Shown: positions 569-24,604 of the stretch, one piece after another
Numbering within the stretch: position 1 is the first letter of the stretch
How the letters are laid out: each line of letters opens with the position of its first letter
DNA from: a virus
Length of the DNA: 24,604 bases
Virus record (IMG/VR): IMGVR_UViG_3300018476_000041
Location: 1-24,604 of that record
Strand: one strand, 5' to 3'
The notes under the pieces: model-generated
The model's input: only the letters and a program-made list of their open reading frames with translations
What the model was told of the DNA's origin: nothing
Database searches by the model: none
Program-made: the position numbers and the translations under genes

Positions 569-3541
569 CTATGCCTCATCGATGAAGTTGGCGTGGACCG
601 TGCCTGCCAGATTGATTTCGAGCAGATACTCGGACGCACCAGCATACTCGGTGCCGGACGCAATTCTGGCCGGGATTGTAATCGCTCCCAGTTCAGTGGC
701 GAGTGACTTCATCATGATATGAATAGAGTAGCCGTTCTCCTGCAGCCATTGGTTCAAAAACGTCTTGCTGATCCTGACCATCTTGTCGTGAACACCAATG
801 TGAACCTGAATTGCATCCAGCCGATCCGGGTGCATTGAGAGTATCTGGATAGTCCCGGCAGCTGGCTTGCCGCGCCCGGCGTGGATGCGGTTGGTCCGCA
901 GCGTGTGCCGCGCCCGCCTGTCGTTGAGGAACTGCGCCAGCACGTTCACTACGTTGAAGGCGTCGCTCATGTCGACGTGCGACGCCTTGCGGTCGCCGCG
1001 CATGTTGTCCAGCGTGAGCTTCAGAAAGTGCTTCAGGCGTGGGATATCGATGTTGGTGAAGCCCAGCTGGTTGGCATACTCGGCACCCTTCAGGAGCGTG
1101 ACGATCATCACCCTCCAGAAGCGCTCCTCGTTGGCCATATCGAATTCCTTGCTGATCTCCTCGTTGAGCGCGAAGATCTCAGGTTCGATAGTGGCGATGT
1201 TGCTTCCCAGAAATCTGGCGTATTCCAAGCCAATTTGCCCGTAATTCTGGTCGAGGATGCCGTGCATCTTGTCAGCCAGAGCCGAACTGATCTGGCCCTT
1301 GCCCGTCGCGTTGCGCTTCACCTCGTACTCGAACACACGGTAGATGCCCGCTGCCGTGTTCTTTGAGTGCTGTGCAACATGATCCATGATGGAGTCATTG
1401 GACGCGCTGATCATCATGGTGCGCCACGAGCCAGCTTCCCGCATGTTCGCGCTTTGCGTCATGCGGTCTTTCTCTTTGCCCTTGACCAGATCGAACACCA
1501 TCTTGACGAAGCGCTTGCTCTCGTCCTCGCCCTTGAGTTCGTCCCAGTAGATCGGCAAGCTGTTGATCTGGCCCATCTTTCCGAACACGCTGTTGGACGT
1601 GTCAGTCGTCCCGGCCATCGCCATCTGGGGGTGGCCCCACACAGCTTGGGCGATACGCATCGCGGTGGTCTTGCCGAAGCCGGACTCGATTGAGTATGTG
1701 CTGAGAAGGATACCCGGCAGGTTGACGAACTTCAGCAGTGGTGCGGCGAACGCCGACGCGAGTATCCCCTCCAGCGCGGGCCGGTCCTGATCGGTGATCA
1801 TCCGTGCCGCTTCGATCCAAGGATCGCGGCTTCCCATCGGGGTGAAGCGCTTGACCAGCACCGGGTCGGGGTTCGCAGCACCTCTATCAGTGCCACCCGC
1901 CATCCACAGCGAGCCGCCGTATACGAAGCCCTCAAGGTCGCCCTTGGGAGTTTCGGACCATCCAAATGGTGCGGCGCTGACAACTGCTTGTTTGGATTGC
2001 TGTAATTTTCCAATCCACGACACGATGAACTCCCTTATGTTCTTGGCCTCACCGTCGCGGATGGGCATGCCTTGGTTCCAGAGGAGCCGGATCATCCCCT
2101 CTTTGGATGCCGCTTCCTTCAGGGGAAGCCCGATCTGAATGGCGCGTCCCAGTTCAGTGATGGTTGTAAAATTAAGCGTGTACACCGGGCTGATCTGCAG
2201 CGTCGGATTGTACATCGGATATGTACTCAGGGGGATGTCCGACGCGGTGCCGTCGCTGTCGATGAGTATCCGGCAGACAATGTTATTTTGTAATCGCTTG
2301 TAGCCAACTGGGAGATCGTTTGAGCCGACAGCTGGTCCGTTATATCCCGCACTACCTGCGCCCGCCGCTGCCGCAGCCGATACCTTCGCCATAAGCTGAG
2401 TTGCGGCAATGTTGAGAGGAGATCGATTTGCCGCAAGGAGTGGACAAGTTTGGCACCCCGCGTGCCCAGATGCAGAGATCGTTCGGCACGCAGGCCAGCC
2501 AAGATCCTTGCTCTGGCGGTCACGTTCTTTGCGGTTGAATAGCTCGTCGGTAGCGGCTTTGTCGTACTTGGCGCTTCCGCAGGCCATTGCGTGTGCATCC
2601 GCCCGTCCTCCTTCCGTGAAGGTTGCAATCAGAGTCGACAGGTTCCACAACGGATTGGAGTTTACGCCGGACTTGAGCGCGCTGCCAATAAAGTCGCACA
2701 GGGGCGCGATCTCGCTGAGATTGATTGGATAGCTTTCGACGCCGGTTTCGAGATCGCTGATGTCTTCGATGGGCGTCTTGCGCGGCAGGAAATCGAACGG
2801 CGAAACCACATGAAGCGGCGTGAATACTTTATAGGGCTCTAACGCTGTCTCCAGTCGAGCCACGCTGTAATCGCTACCAGTGCGCCCCCCAACAAGATCA
2901 ACTGGACGAGGGACATCCAGCTTCCGATTGAGAGTGCCCGGAACCCTAAGAATACGAGCAGCATCAATAGTACAGCCCGTATCGCATAGAAGCCCATTAA
3001 CTTTCGCTGCGTTGGCGAGGGCGTTGGCAAGCGGTTGCCATTCGTTGATTGTGAGTGCGCGGTCGAAGGTCCAGTAGATGTGGAACCCTCCACCGGATTT
3101 GACGATGACACTTGGTTTGGGGAGCCCGACGATGGCGATGAATGCGCTGAATGCGGCGAGTGCTTCCTCCAGTGTGTCATAGCTGTCCTTGTCGTTTCCT
3201 TTGGCGTCGATATCCATGAACAGGCTTTTGAACGCTGTTGCATTCTCCTGTGAGCGGATCGGCAACGTATACACATTGCCCTTCATGGATACCTTGGGTA
3301 GCGCGTCTCTCTGCGAGGACATGCAGACGTAGATATCTTCGACATCAGAAAGACTCTGCGCCCACTTTACAGTTCGCACAGCTTCTTGAACCGAACGCAC
3401 AGCACGACCTGTCCAGATCGGCTTGCCGGTGTGTTCGCTTATCTTGTTGGTCTTCCAGTGGATGTTAACGAATGAAGGAGCGTCGCCTTCTTGCGGCCAA
3501 GGCAAAACCTTGGCGAAATACGCCTGTGCAGAGTTGGACAT
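569..3541 (-). CDS. Primase-helicase: AEP-type primase fused to a P-loop helicase/ATPase (990 aa)
   Basis: This is a two-part replication protein expected to lay RNA or DNA primers and unwind the fork. The N-terminal third has the archaeo-eukaryotic primase motifs: FMDID with D110 and D112, SGGGFHIYW with H154, and D193-x-x-R-x-x-R-V-P-G-T-x-N-R-K. A Cys/His cluster follows (C352, H360, C363, C366), resembling the small zinc element of phage primases. After an Ala/Gly-rich linker (about 385-400) comes an ATPase domain with Walker A ESGFGKTT at 619-626, Walker B IYWDE (D667, E668), a sensor-like ISASND near 711-716 and a downstream Arg in GIYRVFEYE. The C-terminal half recalls DUF927-type helicases, but motor family assignment is tentative. 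The start has GGAAGAG upstream, preceded by the CCACCCAC leader motif. Confidence 0.88.
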   Translation of the reverse strand: MSNSAQAYFAKVLPWPQEGDAPSFVNIHWKTNKISEHTGKPIWTGRAVRSVQEAVRTVKWAQSLSDVEDIYVCMSSQRDALPKVSMKGNVYTLPIRSQENATAFKSLFMDIDAKGNDKDSYDTLEEALAAFSAFIAIVGLPKPSVIVKSGGGFHIYWTFDRALTINEWQPLANALANAAKVNGLLCDTGCTIDAARILRVPGTLNRKLDVPRPVDLVGGRTGSDYSVARLETALEPYKVFTPLHVVSPFDFLPRKTPIEDISDLETGVESYPINLSEIAPLCDFIGSALKSGVNSNPLWNLSTLIATFTEGGRADAHAMACGSAKYDKAATDELFNRKERDRQSKDLGWPACRTISASGHAGCQTCPLLAANRSPLNIAATQLMAKVSAAAAAGAGSAGYNGPAVGSNDLPVGYKRLQNNIVCRILIDSDGTASDIPLSTYPMYNPTLQISPVYTLNFTTITELGRAIQIGLPLKEAASKEGMIRLLWNQGMPIRDGEAKNIREFIVSWIGKLQQSKQAVVSAAPFGWSETPKGDLEGFVYGGSLWMAGGTDRGAANPDPVLVKRFTPMGSRDPWIEAARMITDQDRPALEGILASAFAAPLLKFVNLPGILLSTYSIESGFGKTTAMRIAQAVWGHPQMAMAGTTDTSNSVFGKMGQINSLPIYWDELKGEDESKRFVKMVFDLVKGKEKDRMTQSANMREAGSWRTMMISASNDSIMDHVAQHSKNTAAGIYRVFEYEVKRNATGKGQISSALADKMHGILDQNYGQIGLEYARFLGSNIATIEPEIFALNEEISKEFDMANEERFWRVMIVTLLKGAEYANQLGFTNIDIPRLKHFLKLTLDNMRGDRKASHVDMSDAFNVVNVLAQFLNDRRARHTLRTNRIHAGRGKPAAGTIQILSMHPDRLDAIQVHIGVHDKMVRISKTFLNQWLQENGYSIHIMMKSLATELGAITIPARIASGTEYAGASEYLLEINLAGTVHANFIDEA

Positions 3542-3560
3542 GCTTCTCTTCCGTGGGTGG

Positions 3561-3584
3561 CTGGGGGAGCGTTAGCTCCCCCAG
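3561..3584. other. Perfect 10-bp stem-loop between two replication genes
   Basis: CTGGGGGAGC (3561-3570) and GCTCCCCCAG (3575-3584) pair perfectly around a GTTA loop. The hairpin sits just after the stop of the 326-aa gene and just before the ribosome binding site of the primase-helicase. There is no T-tract on either side, so it is not a classical intrinsic terminator. It may instead stabilise mRNA 3' ends, act as a processing site, or limit ribosome read-through. Confidence 0.7.
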
Positions 3585-3590
3585 TAGAAA

Positions 3591-5234: not shown

Positions 5235-6800
5235 TTATTCAGCTGTGAGTGCAGTTTCGTCTTCGAACAGTTTGAGCAGTTGATCTTGTACTTTTTGTTT
5301 TTGTTGCAGCATCTTGTAGATACGCTTCTCTACCGGCGTACTTTGCAGATGAAGGACAAGCTGTTTATGCGCTTGACCAACTCGGCGTATGCGATGGTTA
5401 GCTTGATCATAAATTTCAAGAGACATGACCGGAGCAAACCAGATGACTGTGTCTGCCGCTGTGAGAGTAATACCGTGAGCAAGACACTGAGGATGAGCAA
5501 GTATAACGCGATATTTACCAGTGTTCTGGAACAGATTAAATATCTCAGCGCGCTTCGTAGCAGGTGTATCACCGTCAACAGTAGCATGTTCAATAAAACC
5601 AGCTGTGAGTGCGCTACTGATGCCGTCCAGTGCATGTTTGAATGGTGCGAACACCAGCACTTTACGGTCGGTACTCTCGATTGCATCCAGCAGTGCCTGA
5701 ATGCGATCATTGTTGTCGAGCGCCACGACCCGGTGGTTCTTGTCGTATACCCAGCCGGTTGATATCTGCAGCAGCTTCATCATGACAGCACCTGCGTTCG
5801 CTGCCGTGATTTCATGGTTCTGTACAGCTACGTAGCATTGCTCTGCCAGTGTCTTGTATATCTTGGTCTGCTTCGGCCCCAGAGCTACATCGACATTGCG
5901 CTCGACCATGTCGGGCAACTCTACTACGTCGTCCAGCGTAAAGCGTACTGCGGGTTGCATGGCCGCGAACGCTTTCTCAACTGCGTCGGGCTTCGGCACC
6001 CACTTGAATGCGGTTGCCTTGTGCATCAAGTCTTCGCGGAACCTAGAGAAGTATTTCGGCACGGTGTTGGGCGTGACGAGCCTTGCCTGTGCCCATGCAT
6101 CCGTGGGCGACGTAGGGATCGGCGAGCCAGTCATGCCCCACACCCACTCCATCCGGTTTGCCAGCCGGGACATGGACTTGTTGCGCTGGGACTGCCCGTT
6201 CCTGAATACGGCAAGCTCGTCAATCAGCAGCACGTTAATGTCGGTGCGCTTCATAAGCTCGTCAAAGATAACCCGATGACCGTCGTGGTTGATGACGAAG
6301 ACATCCACGTCGGGATCTTTCAACAGATCGAGCCGCTTTGCTTTGCTCCCGTGCAGCACTGCGTATTTGATATGCGGCACGGTCGAGAAGATTTCCCGCG
6401 CCCATGTGAATGTGAGCGTGGACAAGGGCGCTGATACCAGCATCTTGCCGCAGATGTTGTTACTACGAAGGTAATCGAACGCCCAGAGAGCCGCCTTAGT
6501 CTTTCCCGTCCCCATCCCGTTCAGGACGTACGCTCTTTGCTCCAGTGTCAGCATCGCCGATGTTGACTTCTGGCTCTTGAACGGCGTCCCTCCGCACCAG
6601 TCGTAATGCGTCAATATCGGGCTCGGTACGTCGTACCCCATCTTTCTTAACAAATACGTTTCGGTCGGGCGATGCGGAAGCAGAATGTGCGGCCCACCAG
6701 CGTGCGAGATACTTTTTGCTGTCGGGAAAAGGTTCTGGATGTTCTCCGCGAACGGCACTCCCACCATCTGGTGCTTCGGGCTGACTAGTACTGGTAGCAT
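5235..6800 (-). CDS. SNF2/SF2-type DNA helicase (521 aa)
   Basis: This is a DNA-dependent ATPase of the SF2/SNF2 type, common in phage replication modules, where it is thought to remodel forks or displace proteins. Motif I is NGMGTGKT (94-101), motif II LLIDELAVF with D194-E195, and motif III GMTGSP near 222-227. The C-terminal lobe has a QANHRIRRVGQ motif VI at about 466-476. Motif II reads DELA instead of the usual DEAH or DEGH; the catalytic Asp and Glu are retained. The N-terminal stretch with LLRKMGYDVPSPILTHYDW is typical of phage members and supports a start near 6800. The ribosome binding site is weak (AGGTG), and the first 305 nt overlap the VRR-NUC frame. Confidence 0.88.
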   Translation of the reverse strand: MLPVLVSPKHQMVGVPFAENIQNLFPTAKSISHAGGPHILLPHRPTETYLLRKMGYDVPSPILTHYDWCGGTPFKSQKSTSAMLTLEQRAYVLNGMGTGKTKAALWAFDYLRSNNICGKMLVSAPLSTLTFTWAREIFSTVPHIKYAVLHGSKAKRLDLLKDPDVDVFVINHDGHRVIFDELMKRTDINVLLIDELAVFRNGQSQRNKSMSRLANRMEWVWGMTGSPIPTSPTDAWAQARLVTPNTVPKYFSRFREDLMHKATAFKWVPKPDAVEKAFAAMQPAVRFTLDDVVELPDMVERNVDVALGPKQTKIYKTLAEQCYVAVQNHEITAANAGAVMMKLLQISTGWVYDKNHRVVALDNNDRIQALLDAIESTDRKVLVFAPFKHALDGISSALTAGFIEHATVDGDTPATKRAEIFNLFQNTGKYRVILAHPQCLAHGITLTAADTVIWFAPVMSLEIYDQANHRIRRVGQAHKQLVLHLQSTPVEKRIYKMLQQKQKVQDQLLKLFEDETALTAE

Positions 6801-8528: not shown

Positions 8529-10406
8529 CTATTTCGCATCACCATAGGAAGATCCGACACCTACTTCGGCAGCGAGGGGAAGCCCCGGTGCCCAGTCAGG
8601 AGTGCGCGTCATCTCATGGAGTACGAGCGCCTTGATCTCGTCCACTCGTTCGAGCGGCACGCCATACACAAGCTCGTCGTGTACTTGCATGCCGAGACCA
8701 ATGTGCCGCTGGATACGAAGTGCTGCGTCCATGGTGTGGATGCGAGCCAGCGCCTGCACGATGTTCTCCAGCAACTTGCCGCCGTAGATCTTCTTGGGCT
8801 CCGCACCGAACGTGAACATGTATTGCGTGCCGCGTTCTGATGCTTCGGTGTGAAGATTGTAGTAGTGCAGCTTCAATCCATTCGGCAACTTGACTGCGTT
8901 TCTCTCGAATTCGCAGGGACCGAGGTGGTATTTGTTGGTGTTACCCCGCAATACCGGGATGCCAATGTTCTGGAGGTAGCTCCATGTGTTGCTGATCGCC
9001 ATGAACTTCCTGCGATAGAGGCTGACGATTTCGTGCGCCTTCTCCATCGACATCTCGATCTTGGTGCCCAGCTGCAACTGGCTCTGGACTTCGATGGTGT
9101 TCTGGAATTTCTCTCCCCCAACCTGAAAGCCGAGACCCAGAATGCTCGTTTTGCCCATGAACCGTTCGTGCGGATGATCCTTCTTGTTGACTGGATACCC
9201 GAACACTGACGATGCGAATTTGCAGTAGACATCGATGCCGTCAGCAAAGTCCTTGACCAGATCCTCTTGCCCACACAGCCACGCTACGATCCTTGCTTCG
9301 ATCTGTGCAGCGTCCACCGTGAGGATAGCTTGTCCGGGTTTGGCTATGAGTGCGCGACGAAGATTGCCCCCTCGCGGCAGGTTCTGCATATTCAGCTTCC
9401 AGTCACCACTCAAGCGACCAGTATGCGCGCCTGCATAACGAAGCGGGATCGGCATTAACTTCTGCTCGCCGTTCTTCCAGTCGAGATTTGCTATGCTTAG
9501 TAACCTTTCAGAGCGCCGCTCTTCGAGAGTGCTTTTGTGCCCGAGCCGTGCCGCAACCAGCACCTGCACTGCAGTGTTGGGGAAAGTCTCCAGTGCAATG
9601 AAGTCCTTGTCGGTCTTGGCGAATGCGTAGCCAACCTTGCCAGTGAGCGGCGAGATCTTCTGCGGCGGCTCGCAACCGAAGTTACGAAGCAGTGTTGCGA
9701 ACTTCTCGTTCGACATCAGGTCTGCCTTGCCGTTCGTTCCGAGCAGCATGGCGCTTGCCATCAATTCCATTTTCTGTTGTTGGACGGCAGCGAGGTGGGT
9801 AGCGATTGCGTTTTGATCCAGCAGGAATTTGGGCTGGATGGCGCAGCGAAGCACCATGTCCATGGTCAGGAGTTCTTTGATCGGGAACAATCCAGCCCTG
9901 ACGGTCTTGTCGTAAATTGTGGCGCAGAGATCCGCATCGTTCTTGGAGTACTCCGAGTATGCGGGCATGCGTCCGGCGTCGATGATCGCTTGCCGGGTCA
10001 TACCTTCGACGGATTTTACTTCGTCGCCCTTGATGCCAATCTCCAGATGCTTGGCTACTGAAGCCAGCGAGAGCGACTTCAATCTGTGACCATAGAGCGC
10101 GCGGCTGATGCCGAGTGTGTCCGCCATCAGGCGGGGTACTACGTTGTACCTCCACGCCAGAATACTCATATCGAACAAAGAGTTATGGCTGACGACACAG
10201 GCGCTGTCGAGCTTTGCCTGTTTGATCCAGCTGGCGAAGTCGATACCATCGACTACGTAGGTGTCTTGGTTGTCGGGCCATCCCTCCTTGACCGCGCAGA
10301 GAATTGTCTCAAAGCGACTGTCGAGAATGTATTCGACCGGAGTCATTTTTCTGAGAGAAAACTCCTTGTCGTAGTAAGTTTCGAAGTCCAGCACGACGGT
10401 TCGCAT
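8529..10406 (-). CDS. Family A DNA polymerase with 3'-5' exonuclease (625 aa)
   Basis: This is the replicative DNA polymerase. The N-terminal proofreading domain has Exo I VLDFET (D7, E9), Exo II SHNSLFDMSIL (N75, D79) and Exo III YSKNDADL (Y153, D157). The polymerase domain has motif A VDAAQIEARIVAW (D365, E370, R372), motif B ERFMGKTSILGLGF (R415, K419) and motif C VHDELVYG (H576, D577, E578). There is no 5'-nuclease domain, as is usual for phage enzymes. The start at 10406 (MRTVVLDFETYYD) is preferred: AGGG lies about 9 nt upstream and Exo I then falls at the usual distance. An upstream in-frame ATG at 10443-10445 lacks a ribosome binding site. Confidence 0.92.
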   Translation of the reverse strand: MRTVVLDFETYYDKEFSLRKMTPVEYILDSRFETILCAVKEGWPDNQDTYVVDGIDFASWIKQAKLDSACVVSHNSLFDMSILAWRYNVVPRLMADTLGISRALYGHRLKSLSLASVAKHLEIGIKGDEVKSVEGMTRQAIIDAGRMPAYSEYSKNDADLCATIYDKTVRAGLFPIKELLTMDMVLRCAIQPKFLLDQNAIATHLAAVQQQKMELMASAMLLGTNGKADLMSNEKFATLLRNFGCEPPQKISPLTGKVGYAFAKTDKDFIALETFPNTAVQVLVAARLGHKSTLEERRSERLLSIANLDWKNGEQKLMPIPLRYAGAHTGRLSGDWKLNMQNLPRGGNLRRALIAKPGQAILTVDAAQIEARIVAWLCGQEDLVKDFADGIDVYCKFASSVFGYPVNKKDHPHERFMGKTSILGLGFQVGGEKFQNTIEVQSQLQLGTKIEMSMEKAHEIVSLYRRKFMAISNTWSYLQNIGIPVLRGNTNKYHLGPCEFERNAVKLPNGLKLHYYNLHTEASERGTQYMFTFGAEPKKIYGGKLLENIVQALARIHTMDAALRIQRHIGLGMQVHDELVYGVPLERVDEIKALVLHEMTRTPDWAPGLPLAAEVGVGSSYGDAK

Positions 10407-10529: not shown

Positions 10530-11231
10530 TTAGCTCATGCCGTAGAACGTAGCGAACGGCTCGTTGTGCAGTTGCCCAACCTTGATCTCAAGTGTCACTT
10601 CTCCGAATTCAGGAGGCTTGATGTCGTGCGGGATCAGTTTCGCATTGGCGATGGTTTCCGCAGTAAGCCTGCATGCTGCCAGCAATGAACTGGCAAGCGG
10701 CGGAATTTTGCCCGGCATTTTGAGTTCCTGAAGTTCTTTCGAAAGTTCTCTGGTGCTTTCACGCTCGCCAAGCAGCGAGATGATCGTGGGCCAGTAGTAC
10801 CGTACTGCAGTCTTGGAACATACGGCATTGAGCATATCCAGAACCTTGGCTACGCGACCGAACTCTTTGGATGGATCGCCGCCATTCTCTATCCAGTAGT
10901 TGATGCGGTCGATGACATGCTTCGGCGCGTCGGGCTGAATAGAGAGATCGCGAACCATCGGGAGTGCGCGCTTCTCTGCGCTGCTGCGCATATACAGCAG
11001 CGCGGTCTGTACCTTCCCTTCACCGCAGTCCAGCTTGAAGCTGTGAACTTGCGATGATGTGTCGAGGTATGAACCGATATCGCGAAAGATATGCCGCGCT
11101 TCGGACGGCACGAAGGTGTCGATGTATTCCTGCTGTGTCAGAGACATCTGGCCTAGTTGCTTGCGCCTGCTGTAGAGTACACGGATGTTCTCCCGAATGT
11201 CATACATTGTGGAGCGGCTGAATGCGGACAT
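10530..11231 (-). CDS. Hypothetical protein upstream of the DNA polymerase (233 aa)
   Basis: The 233-aa soluble protein begins MSAFSRSTMYDIRENIRVLY. It is predicted to be mostly helical, with a middle region VIDRINYWIENGGDPSKEFG and a C-terminal beta-like stretch EFGEVTLEIKVGQLHNEPF. No catalytic motif or known domain was recognised. A very good ribosome binding site (CAGGAGTAACT then ATG) supports the start. It ends directly before the hairpin at 10491-10523 and precedes the DNA polymerase gene, so a replication-related role is possible but unproven. Confidence 0.7.
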   Translation of the reverse strand: MSAFSRSTMYDIRENIRVLYSRRKQLGQMSLTQQEYIDTFVPSEARHIFRDIGSYLDTSSQVHSFKLDCGEGKVQTALLYMRSSAEKRALPMVRDLSIQPDAPKHVIDRINYWIENGGDPSKEFGRVAKVLDMLNAVCSKTAVRYYWPTIISLLGERESTRELSKELQELKMPGKIPPLASSLLAACRLTAETIANAKLIPHDIKPPEFGEVTLEIKVGQLHNEPFATFYGMS

Positions 11232-11233
11232 AG

Positions 11234-11449
11234 TTACTCCTGTGGTAAGTTTTGGGTGGGGGGTGCGTCGAGTTTTAATAGTTTGCTCACCAGCTTGCCG
11301 CGCGACGCTACGTCAAACCGTTGATAGATGTCGTAGAGATGTACCTTCACCGTGCCGTGCGCGATGTTGAGTGCGCGAGCGATTTCCTTATTGCTCATAC
11401 CTTGGAGTATGAGATTGACGATCTCTTGCTGGCGTGGTGTCAGGTTCAC
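11234..11449 (-). CDS. LuxR/GerE-type helix-turn-helix protein (71 aa)
   Basis: The product is almost only the DNA-binding domain of LuxR-type regulators: LTPRQQEIVNLILQGMSNKE, then IARALNIAHGTVKVHLYDIYQR, the classical GerE four-helix unit with the recognition helix around GTVKVHL. It has no receiver or ligand-binding domain, so it would act as a constitutive binder or as a partner for another factor. The start is a GTG that overlaps the preceding TGA (GTGA), with AGGA 5 nt upstream. It is a good candidate for a regulator of early or middle phage genes. Confidence 0.85.
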   Translation of the reverse strand: MNLTPRQQEIVNLILQGMSNKEIARALNIAHGTVKVHLYDIYQRFDVASRGKLVSKLLKLDAPPTQNLPQE

Positions 11450-12202: not shown

Positions 12203-13576
12203 TCAGGCGGCTTGCTTGGGAATATCTACCACGTCTCCGAACGGATACTTGGCGGGTTCGTAGATGCTTCCCCAGATCGTCATATACTCGGGCTCCTTGT
12301 CCGGAAACGTACCCAAGCCATCGGTCAGGTAGACCAGCGCATCCGGTTCGAGACCCATCTTCTTGATCTCTTCGAACACCGGGATGAAGTTGGTACCACC
12401 ACCGCCCGGCATCGGCTTCTTACGCAGCGCAAACAGATCGCCTGCCTCTTCGACTTCATCGACACGATGAACTTTAGCGTCGCACCACATAACTACGAGA
12501 CGCTTCGGCCTGATATCTTCGAGGATACCGGACATCTCCGCGAAGAACATATCCAGTTCTCCCTGACCGATAGAGCCAGAGGTATCGACAGCGACAACAA
12601 CAGCGCCGCAGCCAAAGCCAGAGCGACCCGGTGCATAGATATCACGAACAATGAGCCGACGGTTGGGACGCCGCCAATCGTTCGAACCAGAGCCAGCCTT
12701 TCTTGCGAACAGAGCGACGATCTTATCCGTCCAATCCACTTTGGGCAGAAGGATCTCATTGAGGAGACGCTCTAACCCCGCAGGTAACTTACCTTGCGCC
12801 TTCGCTACGTTCGCAGCCGCAACGATCTGCGTCTGCCATTCGATCTCGCTGCGCTCGCTCGCTGCCGACACAGGATCTTTACCCTGTGAAGTACCGGGTT
12901 CGAGATGCTCATCGAAGCTCTTGCCCTTGACGCCGCTGCCGCCGTTGACTTCGCCATCGTCACAAGGCTTGCCGCCGTTACCGGGCTGCTTGCCGGGTTG
13001 ATCGCCGGGCTTTTTCGGCTGCTTGCCGCCATTCTTTTTCTTGTAGAGCTTCTTGTAGATATCGAGAGCGCTGTCGGCCAGCGTAGCGATGCTCTTGTCG
13101 TGCAGCCAGTCTTTATTAAAGAGTCCGATTTTGCCATCGATCAAGCAGTCGTTGATGATCAGATCGGTAGCGACGTTCATCAGCTTCTGGTCGTACGGCA
13201 GGGTGGAGCCGTCGGGATAGCTGATCTTGCCACGCCGCTGCCAGCCAAGCATCAGACCGCAGTGGTTCCAGATGCAGTGCATGATCTCGTGAGCGAGGAT
13301 GAAGATGCGTTCGTTCAAATTGTATTTGAAGAACGTATCCGGATTGAGCAGCATGTTGCTGCCGTCAGTTGCTGCGATGGGTACATCGCGGGTGAACAAC
13401 GCAACGTGCTTGGACGCAGTGTTGTCCAGCATGGTGTAGAAGATGTGCGTGAACGCCGGACAGTGCCAGTTAAGCGCTGTGCGGGTCTTGCCCCAAGCGT
13501 CAGCCTGCACGGGAGTGAGTGCGCAGGGCGTGACGCCGGACTTAGCCTGTGGCTTGGTCGGCGCTACAGATGTCAT
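12203..13576 (-). CDS. Metallopeptidase-like protein with VWA domain (DUF2201-like, 457 aa)
   Basis: The N-terminal domain has a zincin motif HEIMH (96-100) in ILAHEIMHCIWNH, followed by ATDLIIND. A low-complexity Gly/Lys/Pro linker follows (about 180-230). The C-terminal half is a von Willebrand factor A domain with a complete MIDAS: DTSGS (331-335), GGGT (392-395) and YLTDG (D419). This matches the DUF2201 plus VWA architecture. Such proteins usually pair with a MoxR-type AAA+ ATPase, and one is encoded four genes upstream (14613-15704). The role is probably ATPase-driven remodelling or processing of a protein target; the target is unknown. The start at 13576 has GGAG 7 nt upstream; a longer open frame overlaps the preceding gene. 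Confidence 0.85.
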   Translation of the reverse strand: MTSVAPTKPQAKSGVTPCALTPVQADAWGKTRTALNWHCPAFTHIFYTMLDNTASKHVALFTRDVPIAATDGSNMLLNPDTFFKYNLNERIFILAHEIMHCIWNHCGLMLGWQRRGKISYPDGSTLPYDQKLMNVATDLIINDCLIDGKIGLFNKDWLHDKSIATLADSALDIYKKLYKKKNGGKQPKKPGDQPGKQPGNGGKPCDDGEVNGGSGVKGKSFDEHLEPGTSQGKDPVSAASERSEIEWQTQIVAAANVAKAQGKLPAGLERLLNEILLPKVDWTDKIVALFARKAGSGSNDWRRPNRRLIVRDIYAPGRSGFGCGAVVVAVDTSGSIGQGELDMFFAEMSGILEDIRPKRLVVMWCDAKVHRVDEVEEAGDLFALRKKPMPGGGGTNFIPVFEEIKKMGLEPDALVYLTDGLGTFPDKEPEYMTIWGSIYEPAKYPFGDVVDIPKQAA

Positions 13577-15704: not shown

Positions 15705-15743
15705 AGTTCAGTTCTCCTGATGTGGGTGGGTGGTTTGAGTGCG

Positions 15744-16142
15744 CTACGCGATGAACTCGCTAGCTTTTAATGATTTGAGTTTCTGGTGTACGCTAACACC
15801 ATCTCTGGTTTCGCAGGTATGATAGGGACCGCATGTCGGACACTGGTGCCTGCGCCAGTATCCGTCATGACGTTTGGTTGTCATCTTGACGTTGCCGTAC
15901 CTGCCGCATTGGGGACAGCCCATGTTGATGGGCAGTCCGTCTTCCCTGATCGTGTTCGGAACAGGGACATTGCGGGGTGACTCAGCCAGTATCTTATCTG
16001 TCTGACCCTCATATCGCACCACCATGAAATGGTTGCGGCAGCTGGGGCAGGCAAACCACATCCTGACGTGGTCCGGCTTGGCTACGTAGTGCTTGAGCCT
16101 CGCTGACTTCTGACATTGTGGGCAAGCCATATAGGTTGGCAT
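15744..16142 (-). CDS. Tandem zinc-ribbon protein (132 aa)
   Basis: Four CxxC pairs are present: C7/C10, C32/C35, C76/C79 and C101/C104. This gives two zinc ribbons of the type MACPQCQKSARL...WFACPSC and GCPQCGRYG...HQCPTC. Tandem ribbons of this type are found in phage transcription or DNA-associated proteins (Ogr/Delta-like by general look); function is unproven. The start at 16142 follows the preceding stop by one base, and upstream in-frame starts lie in the preceding gene. Its TAG overlaps the first base of a GCGCACTC element. Confidence 0.75.
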   Translation of the reverse strand: MPTYMACPQCQKSARLKHYVAKPDHVRMWFACPSCRNHFMVVRYEGQTDKILAESPRNVPVPNTIREDGLPINMGCPQCGRYGNVKMTTKRHDGYWRRHQCPTCGPYHTCETRDGVSVHQKLKSLKASEFIA

Positions 16143-16143: not shown

Positions 16144-16386
16144 TTACACCGTGATGGTTGGATTGCGGGTCTCGTAGTATTGGATCTCAACTACTTTCTT
16201 CTGAGTGCGCAACAAACTATGGCGCTGGTCGGGTGTTATCCTTTCATAGTGGTCGCGATCAATTACCAGCAAGTTGCTCTGCTCACTGAAGAGCGAGATC
16301 AACTTGGGGTGGGGCAGCGTGCCGTGTTCAACGTACCTGATGATACGCGGCAGGCCAGCGTCGTTAGTGAATGCGAAGTCGCTCAC
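16144..16386 (-). CDS. Small hypothetical protein with GTG start (80 aa)
   Basis: The product begins (M)SDFAFTNDAGLPRIIRYVEH and ends KKVVEIQYYETRNPTITV. No known domain was recognised. The start codon is GTG and overlaps the preceding TGA (GTGA). The downstream zinc-ribbon gene starts one base after its stop, so three genes are tightly coupled. One GAGTGCGC copy (16203-16210) lies inside this coding region. Confidence 0.6.
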   Translation of the reverse strand: MSDFAFTNDAGLPRIIRYVEHGTLPHPKLISLFSEQSNLLVIDRDHYERITPDQRHSLLRTQKKVVEIQYYETRNPTITV

Positions 16387-16762: not shown

Positions 16763-16963
16763 TTACTTCTCCGGGTTGAAAGCGAGGTCGATTGCTTCGG
16801 GTTTGCCCCACACATAGTCCATGGCGGGAGTGCGCGTCGTGCGTTCAAGTTTCAGCCGTGCAGCAATCAGTGCCGCATTAGCTGTTGTGGCTTCGATGAA
16901 CATCAGCCGCGTGTCGTTGTGGTTGGTTGGGATCTTGGTGTATTCGATCCGGTATTCGGGCAT
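16763..16963 (-). CDS. Small hypothetical protein (66 aa)
   Basis: The product begins MPEYRIEYTKIPTNHNDTRL, has a helix TTANAALIAARLKLERT, and ends EAIDLAFNPEK. The fold looks like a strand-helix-strand mini-domain. No family is recognised. It has a strong ribosome binding site (AGGAG, 7 nt) that overlaps the stop of the preceding gene, and it ends 2 nt before the DUF6378-like start. A GAGTGCGC copy (16828-16835) lies within it. Confidence 0.6.
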   Translation of the reverse strand: MPEYRIEYTKIPTNHNDTRLMFIEATTANAALIAARLKLERTTRTPAMDYVWGKPEAIDLAFNPEK

Positions 16964-17152: not shown

Positions 17153-17300
17153 CGGGTCTCTCCATGAACAGCTGGAATTTCTTGGGGCGGGGAGTGCGCG
17201 GTTTGCGAGGCTTCTTGACCTTGGGGGCAGCGACCATGCCGTACGGCGTGGCGTATGGCCAAGGGCACATCTCGTCGTGGATGAGCTTCTTCTCTTTCAT
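17043..17300 (-). CDS. Small basic Pro/Lys/Arg-rich protein with an overlapping C-terminus (85 aa)
   Basis: The product begins MKEKKLIHDEMCPWPYATPY, then has a highly basic repeat-like stretch VKKPRKPRTPRPKKFQLF resembling DNA- or RNA-binding tails. The last 40 residues or so overlap the 59-aa gene in another frame and look like shadow sequence. Either the true stop was lost by a frameshift or the two genes genuinely overlap by 110 nt. The start is 2 nt after the preceding stop, with only a weak binding site, so it is probably translated by re-initiation. Confidence 0.5.
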   Translation of the reverse strand: MKEKKLIHDEMCPWPYATPYGMVAAPKVKKPRKPRTPRPKKFQLFMERPDAQTKLSDRGGSQRRHRQDPERHGEVLHEVLRPALP

Positions 17301-17302: not shown

Positions 17303-17980
17303 TTACTTCTCAAGTAACCGTTCGATGGTCTTCTTTAATTCCTGGCCCTTGGCAAAGAGCGTGTTGACCTGACTGGTGATGTTGCTCTGCAGCTCTCTTA
17401 GTTCTGCGAGGAATGCCTTTGCTTCTTCGCTGGCTTTGCTGCGGTTCTCATTCACGTCGGGGCCGAAGTATTCATCCCTGAGTGCGCTGACCCATGCACG
17501 CGGCACGCCGAGATCGAGGGACACTTTCTCGTCGGACCAGTTGTCGTGATAGCCAGTGGCTTCGCCGACATAGACCTCGTTGATCTTCTCGAAGATGATG
17601 CGCCTCTCGTCGCGTGTCATGGTCCGCGGCGGTTCGGTTGCTGGTGCAGTCTTGGGCGACGGGGGCGGTGACACGGGTGTCATGGGTACGATCTTGTTGC
17701 TTGCCATGTTGTCGTCTCGCTTTCTGTGGGATGCGATCTTGATTGCGGTGAAGCATTCGGGGCATCGGTTCTGGTGTGGGCTTCGACCGATTTTCCAGCC
17801 CAGCTTCTCGAACTTGGAGTTAGCAAAGCGCTCAGTTATTTCGTCGTCGTTGCCGTGAGAGCGCGATGTGTTCACGGGTAGTGATTGTGCTACTTGGCAG
17901 TGCCCGCACACGGCACGGGCTCCGCGTCGTGGCTGGCCGGATACGTCAACTGTGCAAATCTCCAAAGCTGCATAGGCCAT
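17303..17980 (-). CDS. Two-part protein: Cys-rich N-terminus and helical coiled-coil C-terminus (225 aa)
   Basis: The N-terminal part (1-90) has two CxxC pairs: CGHC in ARAVCGHCQVA and CPEC in NRCPECF. The stretch between (FANSKFEKLGWKIGRSPH) is familiar from small zinc proteins of proteobacterial phages. A Pro-rich linker (PMTPVSPPPSPKTAPATEPP) leads to a second module. That module has RDERRIIFEKINEVYVGEA, WSDEKVSLDLGVPRAWVSAL (HTH-like) and a C-terminal coiled coil. These look like two ancestral genes fused in frame; an internal ATG at 17705-17707 could also start the second part. The start at 17980 has AGGAG about 10 nt upstream and overlaps the DUF7448-like gene by 35 nt. A longer open frame to 18355 is a shadow. 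Confidence 0.68.
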   Translation of the reverse strand: MAYAALEICTVDVSGQPRRGARAVCGHCQVAQSLPVNTSRSHGNDDEITERFANSKFEKLGWKIGRSPHQNRCPECFTAIKIASHRKRDDNMASNKIVPMTPVSPPPSPKTAPATEPPRTMTRDERRIIFEKINEVYVGEATGYHDNWSDEKVSLDLGVPRAWVSALRDEYFGPDVNENRSKASEEAKAFLAELRELQSNITSQVNTLFAKGQELKKTIERLLEK

Positions 17981-18359: not shown

Positions 18360-18376
18360 GTGGGCTCCTGAGTGCG

Positions 18377-18550
18377 CTAAACTTTGAAAGGAAAGTCTTT
18401 ATTTACTTCGCGTTTGAAGTTGGCGAGTTCTTCTTGCTCACGCTGTATGATCATGTGCTCGTAGAGCACCTTGAAAGCCCGCATCTCGCGAAGCGATAGC
18501 TGACTGGCGAGCTTGATCATTGCAGTGATTGGTTCTTTGTCCAGTGTCAT
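18377..18550 (-). CDS. Small helical protein (57 aa)
   Basis: The product begins MTLDKEPITAMIKLASQLSL and continues as one long amphipathic helix (REMRAFKVLYEHMIIQREQE), ending NKDFPFKV. No family is recognised. The start overlaps the stop of the membrane peptide upstream as ATGA, with GGAG 8 nt upstream. Its TAG shares its last base with the first base of a GCGCACTC copy (18370-18377), which is immediately followed by AGGAG of the next gene. Confidence 0.6.
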   Translation of the reverse strand: MTLDKEPITAMIKLASQLSLREMRAFKVLYEHMIIQREQEELANFKREVNKDFPFKV

Positions 18551-18618: not shown

Positions 18619-19100
18619 CAGAAGTCTCCCGGTGCTACTTGAGCGCAGGGAACGCCGTTCGCTCGCCACATATTCACAACACGCGAGCGATCATCGAATG
18701 CCATGATGGGTTCGTAACCATCAATGCGTAACTCCTGAAGTAACTCCTGCTTAATGATCGAGTCGTCGCGATAGTCCAGATCAGCACGCATGTAGAGTGG
18801 CATGTTCGGCAGCTTGGCTACTCTTTCCAGCCACTCCTGAGTAGCTGCACGCTGGCACTCGTTGCGACCGCTCATCAGGATCACGCGGTAGGAGAAGCGC
18901 TGCGTGCATGCCGTATTCCACAGCGTACGGCACAGTTCGATCATGTGCGGGATAGGTTTATCGGCGAAGCAGAAGTGCTTGAAGGCTTCCCAGTCCTTGG
19001 GCTTGGACTGGATGAAGTGCAGGCGGTGCGTCAGGTCCGCCAGCGTGCCGTCTATATCAAATACATAACAGGGCGTGGGTGGGTGAGTGCGCTCAGTCAT
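18618..19100 (-). CDS. HAD-family phosphatase, polynucleotide 3'-phosphatase-like (160 aa)
   Basis: This is a DxDGT-type HAD enzyme. D15 and D17 lie in VFDIDGTLAD, motif II is ILMSGR (S77), K117 lies in IIKQEL, and the acidic motif is AFDDRSRVVNMWR (D136, D137). The ending NGVPCAQVAPGDF is typical of the 3'-phosphatase domain of T4 PNK-like proteins and of stand-alone phage versions. The kinase P-loop domain is absent. It would clean 3'-phosphate ends of DNA or RNA, helping repair or tRNA/DNA end processing. The start overlaps the upstream TGA (ATGA). The first residues (TERTHPPTP) are encoded by a GCGCACTC element plus a CCACCCAC motif. Confidence 0.82.
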   Translation of the reverse strand: MTERTHPPTPCYVFDIDGTLADLTHRLHFIQSKPKDWEAFKHFCFADKPIPHMIELCRTLWNTACTQRFSYRVILMSGRNECQRAATQEWLERVAKLPNMPLYMRADLDYRDDSIIKQELLQELRIDGYEPIMAFDDRSRVVNMWRANGVPCAQVAPGDF

Positions 19101-19849: not shown

Positions 19850-20229
19850 CTTCTGCATCTCCAATATGCTTTGCCCCTGCCGTAGTAACGCTTGCCCTTG
19901 CCACGGCAGATGTCGGTTCGGGGTTTGTGTTTGAGTGCGCGAACTGGTTCTGGCTCGGCAGCCTCGGGCTGCCGTTCGGTATTTTGCGTTGGTGCTGCTT
20001 CCGGAGTTACTTCGGGAGCAACTATGATGCGCTCGGTTGGAATAATTCGAGGTGCTTGGTCCTGATACGCCTTCTTGAGAATTGTAGTGTGGTCAGCTAC
20101 TTCCACTGGCGCTTGCATTGCCTTCACCGGCACCGGGGGCGCATTGACTGCGCTCCAGATGGCGGTGATGAACAGGGCAAGCGCGAATGTGCAGCCCAGC
20201 AGTTCGACTGCAGAGCGGATGTGGCGCAT
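19846..20229 (-). CDS. Membrane-anchored or secreted small basic protein (127 aa)
   Basis: An N-terminal hydrophobic segment (residues about 8-29, VELLGCTFALALFITAIWSA) should act as a signal anchor. A Pro/Glu/Ala-rich periplasmic linker follows, then a basic Cys-containing end (RTDICRGKGKRYYGRGKAYW-RCRR) with two cysteines that may form a disulfide. This layout is common in small secreted phage or alphaproteobacterial proteins. A role in the periplasm, including lysis or host-wall interaction, is inferred. A strong AGGAG lies 6 nt upstream. The sequence TAG-CGCACTC-AGGAG forms the whole junction with the previous gene. Confidence 0.65.
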   Translation of the reverse strand: MRHIRSAVELLGCTFALALFITAIWSAVNAPPVPVKAMQAPVEVADHTTILKKAYQDQAPRIIPTERIIVAPEVTPEAAPTQNTERQPEAAEPEPVRALKHKPRTDICRGKGKRYYGRGKAYWRCRR

Positions 20230-20247
20230 GCGTGGCTCCTGAGTGCG

Positions 20248-20898
20248 CTAGACGGTTTTCGGGCTGATCCAAGTATTGAGTTGCTCGGCAGCGATCAGTA
20301 CTTCGGGCGAGCTATCCTGAATGCCGGGATACTTCTCGCCAGTGATGAGGTCTTCGAGGATCTTCTGAGCCTTCTTGATCTGGCCCTCGACGGTGACCGT
20401 CTTGGTGTTCTCGGACTTCGCCACTGCCGCCAAGATCATGTCATCGTCCATCGGCTCGTCGAGTTTCAGCTGTTCGCGAGCGACACAGACGTAACCCTCG
20501 TAAGGCGACTTGAGTTCGATGCCATCCTTCTTGGCCTTGCGCATTATGACGGTGGCACGGTTGAAGACATCGACTGCATCCCATTTTGGATTGGATGCGA
20601 ACAAACAGATCTGTCGCAACTTTGAGATGTTGGACTTCAGGCCCTTCTCAGTGCGGTCGTGGATCGCTCGCTTGCCTGCATTGATGATGAAGGCTTTGAA
20701 GACACGAGCGGCACCGTCGTCGCCGTTCTTGTCCTTGGAGAGATCGAGAACGCTGTCGTAGACGATGCGAGCAACGTGGATGGCGAGGTTCGGCATGGCG
20801 TCGTCGCCAGCGGCTTGGGCGTAGGCGAGGTCACGGACGATGGCCATGGCGTCGTCCAGACGTGTGTCGTTGGTCAGGTTGTGGGCGAGAGCAGACAT
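20248..20898 (-). CDS. Hypothetical protein of the accessory block (216 aa)
   Basis: The product begins MSALAHNLTNDTRLDDAMAI. It is predicted to be almost all alpha-helical, with segments ARVFKAFIINAGKRAIHDRT and KLRQICLFASNPKWDAVDVF, and ends NTWISPKTV. It may be DNA-associated (K/R-rich middle), but no motif is diagnostic. The start at 20898 has AGGAGGG about 6 nt upstream and is preferred over longer frames that run into the dyad at 20945-20976. It is one of the larger unknown early proteins here. Confidence 0.7.
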   Translation of the reverse strand: MSALAHNLTNDTRLDDAMAIVRDLAYAQAAGDDAMPNLAIHVARIVYDSVLDLSKDKNGDDGAARVFKAFIINAGKRAIHDRTEKGLKSNISKLRQICLFASNPKWDAVDVFNRATVIMRKAKKDGIELKSPYEGYVCVAREQLKLDEPMDDDMILAAVAKSENTKTVTVEGQIKKAQKILEDLITGEKYPGIQDSSPEVLIAAEQLNTWISPKTV

Positions 20899-20944
20899 AG
20901 TGATCCCTCCTGTGGGGGGTTTGGGTGGGTTATGGTGGAAGCAT

Positions 20945-20976
20945 CCCATGGGTTACTACTGAAAGCAACCCATGGG
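20945..20976. promoter_or_regulatory. 10-bp inverted repeat built from two CCCATGGG palindromes
   Basis: CCCATGGGTT (20945-20954) and AACCCATGGG (20967-20976) form a perfect inverted repeat with a 12-nt spacer. Each arm itself contains the 8-bp palindrome CCCATGGG. There is no T-tract, so a dimeric-repressor operator or an mRNA hairpin is more likely than a terminator. It lies between the gene ending at 21010 and the ribosome binding site of the 216-aa gene. Confidence 0.6.
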
Positions 20977-21009
20977 TAGCATTTGGGGGAGTCGCGCGTG
21001 TGAGTGCGC

Positions 21010-21300: not shown

Positions 21301-21630
21301 GGTGTTTGCTTTCTGATGCTCATGCATCTGTTTGTGCTTTGGTGGGTGGTTTTGCTGCTAACGCTGCAGCTAGCGTTCCGTCAGGAAGATTTATTGATGG
21401 CATCTTATGATCGGGGCGGGTTCGAAGACCCTTTCGTCATTCAGTGCCTGCAGGTGGGTAGGCTGCGTCGAAACGTGAGGACGCTATGTGAGTGCGCGAG
21501 TTCAGTACTTCATGGTCGTTACTCGGCATTGTAGGCGTGCAGTGACGCCTCGTTATAAGCCCCACGGGTGAGTGGGGCGGTGAGACCACTTACGCTCACC
21601 CTCTTGCCAGATCATTGGTCTCCCTTTGGT
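21301..21630. other. Gene-poor gap with hairpins and a GAGTGCGC copy
   Basis: No convincing gene lies here; several 11-30 codon frames exist on the minus strand but none has a good ribosome binding site. It holds hairpins 21360-21365/21372-21377, 21559-21565/21572-21578 and 21579-21584/21595-21600. The last two lie just after the stop of the gene ending at 21631 and may end its transcript. The 10-mer CACTTACGCT (21587-21596) also occurs at 14392-14401, where it again follows a CCCCAC and hairpin context. A GAGTGCGC copy is at 21490-21497. Confidence 0.55.
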
Positions 21631-21996
21631 TTAAGCGTTGAAGCGTTTGATCATTTCGATTGCGAGCTTGATCCTTCTTGCGGCTATGCTGGGCATCTCG
21701 ATCTCGACCGCATCGAGCGCGTCTTCGAGTAGCGGCTTGAGGTGCTTGTCGAGCAAGCGCTGGTACGAGTGCTTGAGTTCGGCGATGTCGAATTCCCGGT
21801 GGATTACTTCTGGGGTTACTGCAGGGGTAACAGGCGGCGTGAGAGCGCTAATCGGCACAATCGTGTACCCAGCGTAGTGAAGCTCCTTCATGAACTCGTT
21901 GACGCAGTCTTCTTGGCTGATGCCGTGCTGCGCATCAAGCCGCTGTTGGCTGACAGCTTCTTCGAGAGCCATGTAAAGTTCTTTCATTGCGCTCAT
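21631..21996 (-). CDS. Hypothetical helical protein (121 aa)
   Basis: The product begins MSAMKELYMALEEAVSQQRL. It has a short Pro/Val/Thr linker (LTPPVTPAVTPEVIHREFD) and a C-terminal helical domain (RLLDKHLKPLLEDALDAVEI) ending IEMIKRFNA. No family is recognised. The leader GAACATCGC before its ATG is identical to the leader of the gene at 22019-22351, but here the Shine-Dalgarno GGAGG has become AAAG. Translation may therefore be weaker or may start at the ATG at 21985-21987. Confidence 0.6.
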   Translation of the reverse strand: MSAMKELYMALEEAVSQQRLDAQHGISQEDCVNEFMKELHYAGYTIVPISALTPPVTPAVTPEVIHREFDIAELKHSYQRLLDKHLKPLLEDALDAVEIEMPSIAARRIKLAIEMIKRFNA

Positions 21997-22018: not shown

Positions 22019-22351
22019 TTAAAATGTGAAACAGGGGATGCCAGCTGCTCTCGCCTGCCGGATCATGTTGGCGGTGCCAGCACCACCGGGGAACGCTATG
22101 ACGATGTCGGGCTTGCCTTCGACCAGCATCTGCTTGTTGCGGATGGGGCCAGCGGCGCGTCCGTAAGTCTCCCAGTCTGCGTTGAACGTAAAGATGGGGA
22201 CATTGTTGTCGATAGCCCACTCGCGAGCGAGCCTGTCCGCGCCGCGCGCCCCGCCTTCGATGAGAGCGCAGGGATTATCCAGCGTATCGAGCGCCTCAAA
22301 GACCTTCTTGCGGTCATCGTAGTCGCGTCCGCCACAGACAAGTATTCTCAT
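22019..22351 (-). CDS. DUF2493 (YspA-type) SLOG-family protein (110 aa)
   Basis: The protein begins MRILVCGGRDYDDRKKVFEA and contains LIEGGARGADRLAREWA, then NADWETYGRAAGPIRNKQML and PDIVIAFPGGAGTANMIRQA. This is the classical SLOG/DprA-like Rossmann pattern of DUF2493, with the GGARGAD and PGGAGT nucleotide-binding loops. SLOG proteins bind or cleave nucleotide-derived ligands and occur in phages and in defence systems such as Thoeris-like ThsA. A role in sensing or removing a nucleotide signal during infection is inference. The start at 22351 has GGAGG about 8 nt upstream and overlaps the preceding TGA. Confidence 0.85.
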   Translation of the reverse strand: MRILVCGGRDYDDRKKVFEALDTLDNPCALIEGGARGADRLAREWAIDNNVPIFTFNADWETYGRAAGPIRNKQMLVEGKPDIVIAFPGGAGTANMIRQARAAGIPCFTF

Positions 22352-22572
22352 GCGATGTTCCTCCATGTGATCTTCTTCGGCAGGAGAGAAGGATCAACTG
22401 CGGTGACCGCGACGTTGATCATCAACAAGTGGTTCTTAACCGAAGAGTGGTGATTGGTGGTGGCGGCAGCGAGGGCTTTGTCCGCGTGGTCGGCGATGTT
22501 GCTGAGTGCGCGTTCCAAGAGTTTGACCTTACGTTCGAGGTCGCACATGTGACGGAATTCTTTGTTGTTCAT
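22348..22572 (-). CDS. Small coiled-coil protein (74 aa)
   Basis: The product begins MNNKEFRHMCDLERKVKLLE and is a charged helix to about residue 35, followed by a hydrophobic helix (NHLLMINVAVTAVDPSLL). It overlaps the DUF2493 start as ATGA and is therefore coupled to it. The start follows the CCACCC leader motif directly, with AAGG further upstream. A GAGTGCGC copy (22504-22511) is in the coding sequence. No family is recognised. Confidence 0.6.
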   Translation of the reverse strand: MNNKEFRHMCDLERKVKLLERALSNIADHADKALAAATTNHHSSVKNHLLMINVAVTAVDPSLLPKKITWRNIA

Positions 22573-22792: not shown

Positions 22793-22866
22793 TGCAGGTT
22801 CTCCCGTTGGATTGTGGTGGGTGGAGTGGGTTGTTGGGAGAAGTGTTTGAGTGCGCGACGGTTAGC

Positions 22867-23133: not shown

Positions 23134-23281
23134 TGCATATCTCCGATTTTTGGATGGAACCATTGTGGCACGAGACCCAGGGTAAACATGGCGCGATTGA
23201 GTGCGCAATAAGATGATCGTGAACGTAATGAGAACACGCTTTTTGTAATGATGCATTTGGCAACTAGAACAGGTATTGAAT

Positions 23282-23544: not shown

Positions 23545-23563
23545 TTCAAATTCCTGCTCTGAT

Positions 23564-23594: not shown

Positions 23595-23627
23595 GCGTCG
23601 TGTTCGCGTGTAAGTTGAGTGCGCGAA

Positions 23628-23921: not shown

Positions 23922-23973
23922 GTCTGTGTCTTTCTCTGTGTTTGTTTGTGTCAGTGTTTAATCGTGAGAGCGC

Positions 23974-24064
23974 AACTCCTCGTAGCTCCATCGTCCCCAC
24001 GCTCATGCGGCATCCCGTGTGATGCAAGGCAGGCGTTTCGTGATGGAAGTTGCTACGAGGTGTT
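23974..24064 (-). ncRNA. Long interrupted stem-loop in the leader of the 97-aa gene
   Basis: CCTCGTAGC (23978-23986) pairs with GCTACGAGG (24052-24060). It is extended inside by CCATC/GATGG (23988-23992 with 24042-24046) across an asymmetric internal loop, and outside by AAC/GTT (23974-23976 with 24062-24064). An inner hairpin GCATC/GATGC (24010-24014 with 24021-24025) closes the top. This 17-bp interrupted helix with a branched top looks like a structured RNA leader or an origin hairpin. A further small dyad, GTTAC/GTAAC (24062-24066 with 24074-24078), follows. Confidence 0.55.
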
Positions 24065-24078
24065 ACTCAGTGGGTAAC

Positions 24079-24604
24079 ATTGAATGGTCAGATGATTGGA
24101 TGTTCAGAGGGGATGATCCTATGTGCCTTACCGGCGTCTAAGAGATATCGAGTCTTGCCGATGGTTCAGCGGGGTGTGGCCCGTTCCATCTTAGTAACTC
24201 TCGATGCAAAGATGATCATTGCTCCAAGGTATTCCCGTTTACGGTATCGCTCTTCAGTGAGCAGGTGGATCTTTCTCAATACACGGGAGGTCTAAAAAAT
24301 TTTTTTTCCCGAGGTGTGAGTGCGCATTCCCGAGGGATGAGTGCGCGCCACCGGCGACAAGGTAATGGGGTTTCGATCTGCCTTCGGCCACGCTCTCCTG
24401 AGAGGCGCATCACCTTTACACGGCGACCACATGAAACTATCCCACTACAGCGAAAGTAACTTGTCAGGTTACCCAACCGCTTTGCTCAATGGCGATTGTA
24501 ACCCAGTAATGGGGGAAAGGTTTAATGGGGGCGGCTCGGCAACGGGGGCGGGCCGGGGGGTGGACTGGACAGGTGGGTGGCCGGTGGCGGCCCGGCTTTG
24601 TTAG
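24079..24604. other. Gene-poor right end with homopolymer tract and G-runs
   Basis: No convincing gene is present: short frames lack ribosome binding sites and family-like sequence. The stretch holds a run of A6 followed by T8 (24294-24307), a 21-bp tandem repeat with two GAGTGCGC copies, and several GTTACCCA-like words (near 24071, 24468 and 24500). It also holds G-runs at 24511-24515, 24527-24531, 24544-24548, 24550-24552 and 24555-24560 that could form a G-quadruplex. The early promoter of the long minus-strand gene run may lie here or beyond the window, but I did not find a clear one. Confidence 0.5.
24308..24349. repeat. Two 21-bp tandem units, each with a GAGTGCGC copy
   Basis: The units at 24308-24328 and 24329-24349 share CCCGAGG at the start and TGAGTGCGC at positions 10-18, differing in the two bases between and the last three bases. 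This is the only place where the octamer occurs twice within about 20 bp, which suggests a two-site binding region. Confidence 0.8.

Follow-up and report, generated by a model that had tools for sequence, protein, structure and literature searches.

In a 24,604-bp virus record (IMGVR_UViG_3300018476_000041, positions 1 to 24,604; hereafter the window), which covers an early and replication arm, a short asymmetric word is found many times on one DNA strand and never on the other, and the same 9-mer, GCGCACTCA in the coding sense of the window, is one-stranded across a clade of related phages. We consider it somewhat better than an even bet (a probability of roughly 0.57) that this word marks site-specific single-strand interruption (nick) sites of the kind found in T5, phiKMV and tf. 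Phage DNA has been known since the 1960s to carry localized nicks, which still lack an established function, and, according to the paper on tf, their prevalence has not been surveyed.

A one-stranded word in the window and its relatives

The main genes of the window, which encode a primase-helicase, a helicase, a RecB-like nuclease, a DNA polymerase, a DUF2201 protein and many small early proteins, all lie on the minus strand. The plus strand carries 24 exact copies of the octamer GAGTGCGC, from position 3053 to 24339, and none of the opposite orientation, GCGCACTC, which is the coding-sense form; an order-3 Markov model built from the window sequence expects ∼1.2. This recount agrees with the first-pass annotation, as do the uneven split it described, with 7 copies up to 13517 and 17 beyond, and its junction contexts (TA-GCGCACTCAGGAG at 18370 and 20241, TA-GCGCACTC at 15737 and TAA-GCGCACTC at 21002). 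The base that follows GCGCACTC is A in 20 of the 24 copies and C in the other four, and the 9-mer GCGCACTCA is a better unit than the octamer. Four additional sites, GCGCTCTCA, lie on the same strand as the main word, with none on the other, and behave like a variant of it, so that the site pattern of the window including variants reads GCGCWCTCM.

Fourteen copies fall within genes, against a mean of 1.07 and a maximum of 5 in 500 synonymous-codon shuffles of the window, and they occupy two of the three reading frames, as the earlier claim of different frames had it, mostly as CGC GCA CTC. Intergenic copies are over-represented (10 of the 24 in 16% of the window sequence, by the gene set used) and match the word as exactly as the in-gene ones. 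Selection had been proposed to act on DNA or RNA and not on protein; the shuffles bear out the exclusion of protein, whereas the relatives described below point to the DNA strand, and the RNA half of the proposal falls away.

The records of these relatives were reached through the polymerase and primase of the window; the related phages are ∼60 kb long and include an isolate, Rhizobium phage RHph_TM27A. In a blind scan under an order-3 Markov model, GCGCACTCA is the top-scoring one-strand 9-mer in five carriers (the window, G001, G002, G004 and RHph_TM27A), and the same scan finds the experimentally proven nick word of tf, TACTGTGAC (11/0). In line with the conservation that the first-pass annotation had asked after, the 9-mer occurs, over the window and 13 further records, 160 times on one strand of the genome and 3 times on the opposite one, distributed as follows (same/other strand):

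Window 20/0, G001 14/0, G004 13/0, RHph_TM27A 9/0, G002 5/0
G067 19/0, G044 15/0, G036 12/0, G048 11/0
G076 9/1, G046 9/2, G049 8/0, G043 8/0, G042 8/0

In a four-gene tree, the motif carriers form one monophyletic clade and motif-free relatives fall outside it. Early-arm and late-arm genes lie on opposite strands in the genomes of the clade, and 15 late-arm copies, from 8 genomes, stay on the usual genome strand, against late transcription, while 3 copies in 2 genomes are opposite. All but one of these 15 overlap a minus-strand open reading frame (ORF), and in RHph_TM27A two copies lie within the annotated minus-strand genes EVB29_085 and EVB29_090. The nine sites of this isolate are at positions 19468, 21053, 22985, 24453, 26606, 30473, 34863, 47862 and 59238 of its record. 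The polarity thus tracks the DNA strand and not transcription, which argues strongly against transcription-oriented readings: because it persists in the oppositely transcribed late genes of relatives, the element is one of the DNA strand rather than of RNA. The only exact wrong-strand copies, at 48376 and 55445 in G046 and at 34408 in G076, numbered in the orientation used for the strand comparison, may reflect chance, decay or a local exception. As a side note on the isolate, its annotated 'putative integrase' (L089 22249-25332; MN988461 42248-45331) is the primase-helicase ortholog.

Near-copies, spacing and turnover of the word

A set of 171 sites, gathered with the pattern GCGCWCTCA, has nine fixed positions, one of them two-letter (position 5: A in 94% and T in 6%, the T being used in G043 and the window), with a slight bias in the bases next to it on either side, little beyond, and no extended consensus. 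At orthologous positions in the polymerase and primase genes, four genomes share sites with identical codons; the proteins of these genomes are 41 to 78% identical. Near-copies are purged: those with an end mismatch number 0 against 29.5 expected over both strands of 13 motif-bearing genomes, and 33 against 20.7 expected in 10 motif-free phages, and all one-mismatch neighbours together number 68 against 152 expected (a ratio of 0.45 over both strands, the lowest of 400 shuffled words being 0.55), with two-mismatch words hardly depleted. In the window itself six end variants are retained, all of them on the site strand; in tf, every one-mismatch copy lies on the strand that is nicked.

The sites are also graded in their spacing. 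Counted from the early end, the distance from one site to the next widens in each of the 12 near-complete genomes (mean Spearman 0.84; p < 0.05 in 11 of the 12), as illustrated by G036, with gaps of 485, 641, 988, 1658, 1004, 2025, 1802, 2273, 2514, 8405 and 14413, and the late-arm copies that oppose transcription continue this gradient. The proven nicks of tf follow a gradient in the same direction (Spearman 0.78), and the gaps between the annotated major nicks of T5 (9748, 22336, 39746 and 78573) also widen. The contig ends of a few fragments lie at most 50 bp from a site, without a fixed offset.

Sister phages appear to have switched words. The outgroup G054 carries a word of its own, CGCTATCA, with 14/0 copies against 0.26 expected, a gradient of 0.82 and two late-arm copies on the usual strand, and its sister G062 carries CTATCAC (11/0, two in the late arm) with the same gradient; CGCTATCA and CGCACTCA differ at 2 of 8 bases. 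Since a related word shows the same gradient in these sisters, the system probably predates the word. Many patterns were tried in this search for alternative words, and only that of G054 and, less strongly, that of G062 were retained, those with suggestive gradients in G003 (ACCCACGG), G061 (TWCCCTAA) and G058 being set aside for that reason; the G061 word (9/0, gaps steadily widening, uncorrected for the number of patterns) may be a third word of this system. A scan for exact TAGCGCACTCAGGAG gave 21 contigs, none with a one-strand excess and all at chance, and a paired-motif scan returned mostly coding tandem repeats; L371 has three copies beside a relative of the early gene discussed below.

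The sites of the window are listed here, with the base that follows the octamer in brackets, together with the early gene discussed in the next section:

3053..3060, minus strand: GCGCACTC(A), inside the primase-helicase gene; orthologous site codon-identical in G001, G002 and G004
5607..5614, minus strand: GCGCACTC(A), inside the helicase gene
8600..8607, minus strand: GCGCACTC(C) variant, inside the DNA polymerase gene
9348..9355, minus strand: GCGCACTC(A), inside the DNA polymerase gene; orthologous site present in G001, G002 and G004
10962..10969, minus strand: GCGCACTC(C) variant, in a gene
11369..11376, minus strand: GCGCACTC(A), in the LuxR-HTH gene
13517..13524, minus strand: GCGCACTC(A), in the DUF2201 (VWA-like) gene
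15737..15744, minus strand: GCGCACTC(A), gene junction
16203..16210, minus strand: GCGCACTC(A)
16828..16835, minus strand: GCGCACTC(C) variant, in a gene
17192..17199, minus strand: GCGCACTC(C) variant, in a gene
17480..17487, minus strand: GCGCACTC(A), in a gene
17856..17864, minus strand: variant GCGCTCTCA, T at position 5, as also in G043
18370..18377, minus strand: GCGCACTC(A), gene junction, sharing its G with a TAG stop
19085..19092, minus strand: GCGCACTC(A), gene start/overlap
19933..19940, minus strand: GCGCACTC(A), in a gene
20241..20248, minus strand: GCGCACTC(A), gene junction, immediately behind the conserved early gene
20248..20949, minus strand: conserved early gene of 233 aa; among gene-content correlates of the motif it ranks best
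21002..21009, minus strand: GCGCACTC(A), immediately behind a TAA stop
21490..21497, minus strand: GCGCACTC(A), intergenic
21840..21848, minus strand: variant GCGCTCTCA
22261..22269, minus strand: variant GCGCTCTCA
22504..22511, minus strand: GCGCACTC(A), in a gene
22849..22856, minus strand: GCGCACTC(A), intergenic
23199..23206, minus strand: GCGCACTC(A)
23617..23624, minus strand: GCGCACTC(A), shortly behind an SSB-like (single-strand DNA-binding protein) gene
23965..23973, minus strand: variant GCGCTCTCA
24318..24325, minus strand: GCGCACTC(A), second member of a pair 21 bp apart, at the early end
24339..24346, minus strand: GCGCACTC(A), first of the 21-bp-spaced pair at the early end

The last pair belongs to an imperfect 21-bp tandem repeat (24290-24346; GCGCACTCA..CCTCGGGAA) that is followed by an A/T run close to the contig end, and which possibly lies close to the genome terminus or an early promoter. 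Two similar small genes (21010-21327 and 23628-23921), both matching the single-strand DNA-binding protein PHROGs 18154 and 7364, are a duplicated SSB-like gene with a motif copy close behind each. The window further holds a pair of genes, at 12203-13720 and 14613-15704, one for an ATPase and one for the DUF2201 VWA-like protein, the gene of the latter carrying the PHROG label 'HNH endonuclease' without Pfam support. A second one-strand word, GTGGGTGG on the plus strand (CCACCCAC in the coding sense), occurs 10 times against 0 in the window, often shortly upstream of gene starts (ACCACCCACCCAC), and only 4/1 times in G001; it is probably leader or ribosome-site composition.

Comparison with localized single-strand interruptions

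A literature search for the site word found nothing relevant among the papers listed. The only known systems that we found to share the set of traits described here are the localized single-strand interruptions, a class further defined by ligatable nicks (3'-OH/5'-P) in virion DNA: an asymmetric word on one strand, independence from gene direction, sites in coding and non-coding sequence alike and a denser end half are all features of that class found here, and this match leads us to infer that GCGCACTCA would be a nick word.

The closest resemblance is to the interruptions of tf and LUZ24-like phages (TACT/RTGMC; PMC3517423, PMC4482731), which likewise follow a 9-mer on one strand only, in coding and non-coding sequence, are indifferent to the direction of transcription, are dense in the left, early half and thin out rightward, and whose words differ slightly between related phages, those of LUZ24 and tf being one base apart. 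tf has 14 one-strand 9-mers (TACTRTGMC) and none on the other strand, 11 of them in the left half; two of its sites, sci13 and sci14, lie on the top strand inside minus-strand late genes, and at the two sites measured more than 90% of its molecules are nicked. The clade described here differs in its word, GCGCACTCA, in its unrelated genome and hosts, and in purging near-copies on the site-bearing strand as well. The major nicks of T5 (R/GCGCRGG) share with it the single strand, the widening of spacing from the left end and a GCGC within the word, but T5 has few major sites and a looser consensus that also occurs on the nick-less strand, and the common GCGC may be coincidence. The interruptions of phiKMV-like phages (CGACN5CCTA/CTCCGG) are also on one strand only (3/0 in phiKMV), but theirs is a long gapped consensus with few sites, at annotated phage-promoter-like positions. 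The nicks of phikF77 become sealed early on and return late, and excesses in sequencing reads mark nick sites in LUZ24-like and phiKMV-like phages (PMC4482731).

By analogy, a phage-encoded, sequence-specific nicking system would recognise an element of ∼10 bp and, in progeny DNA, cut a single strand wherever a copy lies, with the breaks sealed after infection. With sites dense towards the early end, which is the left and probably the terminal one, and sparser along the genome, DNA close to that end would hold most of the breaks, and wrong-strand and weak copies would be purged because they would yield double-strand breaks or partial nicks. In this scheme we infer the nicking itself, the identity of the left end with a terminus, the reason for the purge of weak copies and the identity of the enzyme.

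Several observations weigh against this interpretation. The three wrong-strand copies in G046 and G076 all lie in late genes, and the purge of near-cognates on the same strand is not seen in tf. Further, no nickase was identified, BLAST found no gene in common with tf or phiKMV, and the best gene correlate is early and lacks a recognisable nuclease fold, while the nicking genes of T5 map to the late region.

Candidate readers and alternative explanations

The word occurs 22 times in 6.7 Mb and 43 times in 6.8 Mb of Rhizobium genomes and twice in a 643-kb R. etli replicon, where chance at equal base frequencies would give ∼51 per 6.7 Mb, and unrelated Rhizobium phages show no enrichment either (3 copies in 389 kb). 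As it is enriched in neither, its reader is most likely phage-encoded; this comparison covers the host genus of RHph_TM27A, and the phage of the window may have another host. We tentatively regard the 233-aa early gene as a candidate reader. It is present in all motif carriers with sequence over the region, while motif-free relatives have versions ∼28-30% identical or none that was found; the link is one of correlation only, because the motif was gained once on the tree. The predicted model of the protein is all-helical, and it has no Pfam, PHROG or NCBIfam family and no fold match in the PDB. The VRR-NUC and RecB-like nucleases that almost every member of the clade has are further candidates. 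The local candidates named in the first-pass annotation failed: the RHH protein is missing from the motif-bearing G004 and RHph_TM27A, where the region was checked, and among the genomes checked only the window and G001 have it, and neither it nor the LuxR-HTH protein is among the ORFs common to all motif carriers. A protein of 73-76 aa beside the RHH protein, which at first seemed specific, is also found in G003.

A quite possible, though clearly less probable, alternative is that the word is not nicked and serves as an oriented binding signpost for a phage-encoded protein, giving a direction or end cue to a machine that translocates or replicates DNA (a packaging motor, the replisome or a nucleoid-like early protein), as KOPS/SRS do for FtsK/SpoIIIE. 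KOPS-type sites are likewise 8-10 bp long, strictly one-stranded and graded in density, and an early protein that evolves rapidly follows the motif clade; against this, the window has no recognised gene of the FtsK/SpoIIIE kind, the single gain of the motif confounds the gene correlation, and the gradient and the comparison with tf favour nicks. We would give about the same, minor weight to a broader scheme, a fast-evolving, clade-wide 'distance code' of one-strand signposts spaced roughly in proportion to their distance from the genome end, which an orphan phage factor would read in DNA packaging or ejection and from which mis-oriented and near-cognate words would be purged; nicking would then be one output of a general polar addressing, and the spacing law would be a point of convergence among T5, tf and this clade.

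Chi and KOPS/SRS are polar words of 7-9 bp that are tied to DNA processing machines and enriched in the host genome. The word described here is similarly short and polar, but the absence of enrichment in Rhizobium and its unrelated phages, the change of word within the phage clade and the purge of near-copies on both strands make it improbable that it is a Chi-like site that shields the end of the phage DNA from the RecBCD/AddAB nuclease of the host, even though the one-strand polarity, the density gradient from one end and an orientation that suits an enzyme entering at the left end would fit such protection. Of the earlier suggestion of Chi-like or replication-polarity sites, the polarity on DNA therefore stands, and the host Chi part, as far as Rhizobium shows, does not.

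A signal in transcription or RNA (a stoperator, a start-associated sequence, or an antitermination, pause or mRNA-processing site) seems slightly less probable still. It would accommodate the single direction of the window genes, the copies at gene junctions, the over-represented intergenic copies and the few late copies in G046 and G076 that follow transcription. The 15 late-arm copies that oppose the late transcription unit and continue the gradient, the copies deep within coding sequence and the lack of an extended consensus speak against it. The L5 stoperators and the start-associated sequences of cluster K mycobacteriophages, to which the word had been compared, are dispersed, asymmetric and short phage sites as well, but their orientation is set by transcription or by starts; the polarity here is indifferent to transcription, most copies are inside genes and not in intergenic gaps, and few are found just upstream of start codons, so neither analogy holds. 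Finally, an origin in codon usage, protein repeats or mutational bias, which the two frames and the prevalent CGC GCA CTC might have suggested, is refuted by the synonymous shuffles, the equally exact intergenic copies and the related outgroups that carry the same genes without the word.

The combination of a one-strand word, a spacing gradient and a purge of near-copies is offered as a signature by which localized nicks may be recognised from sequence, and the clade, with a named isolate in RHph_TM27A, is available for a test of it. The natural switching of motifs between sister phages could be used in the search for the enzyme, and the spacing law common to these phages is one that any functional theory must account for.

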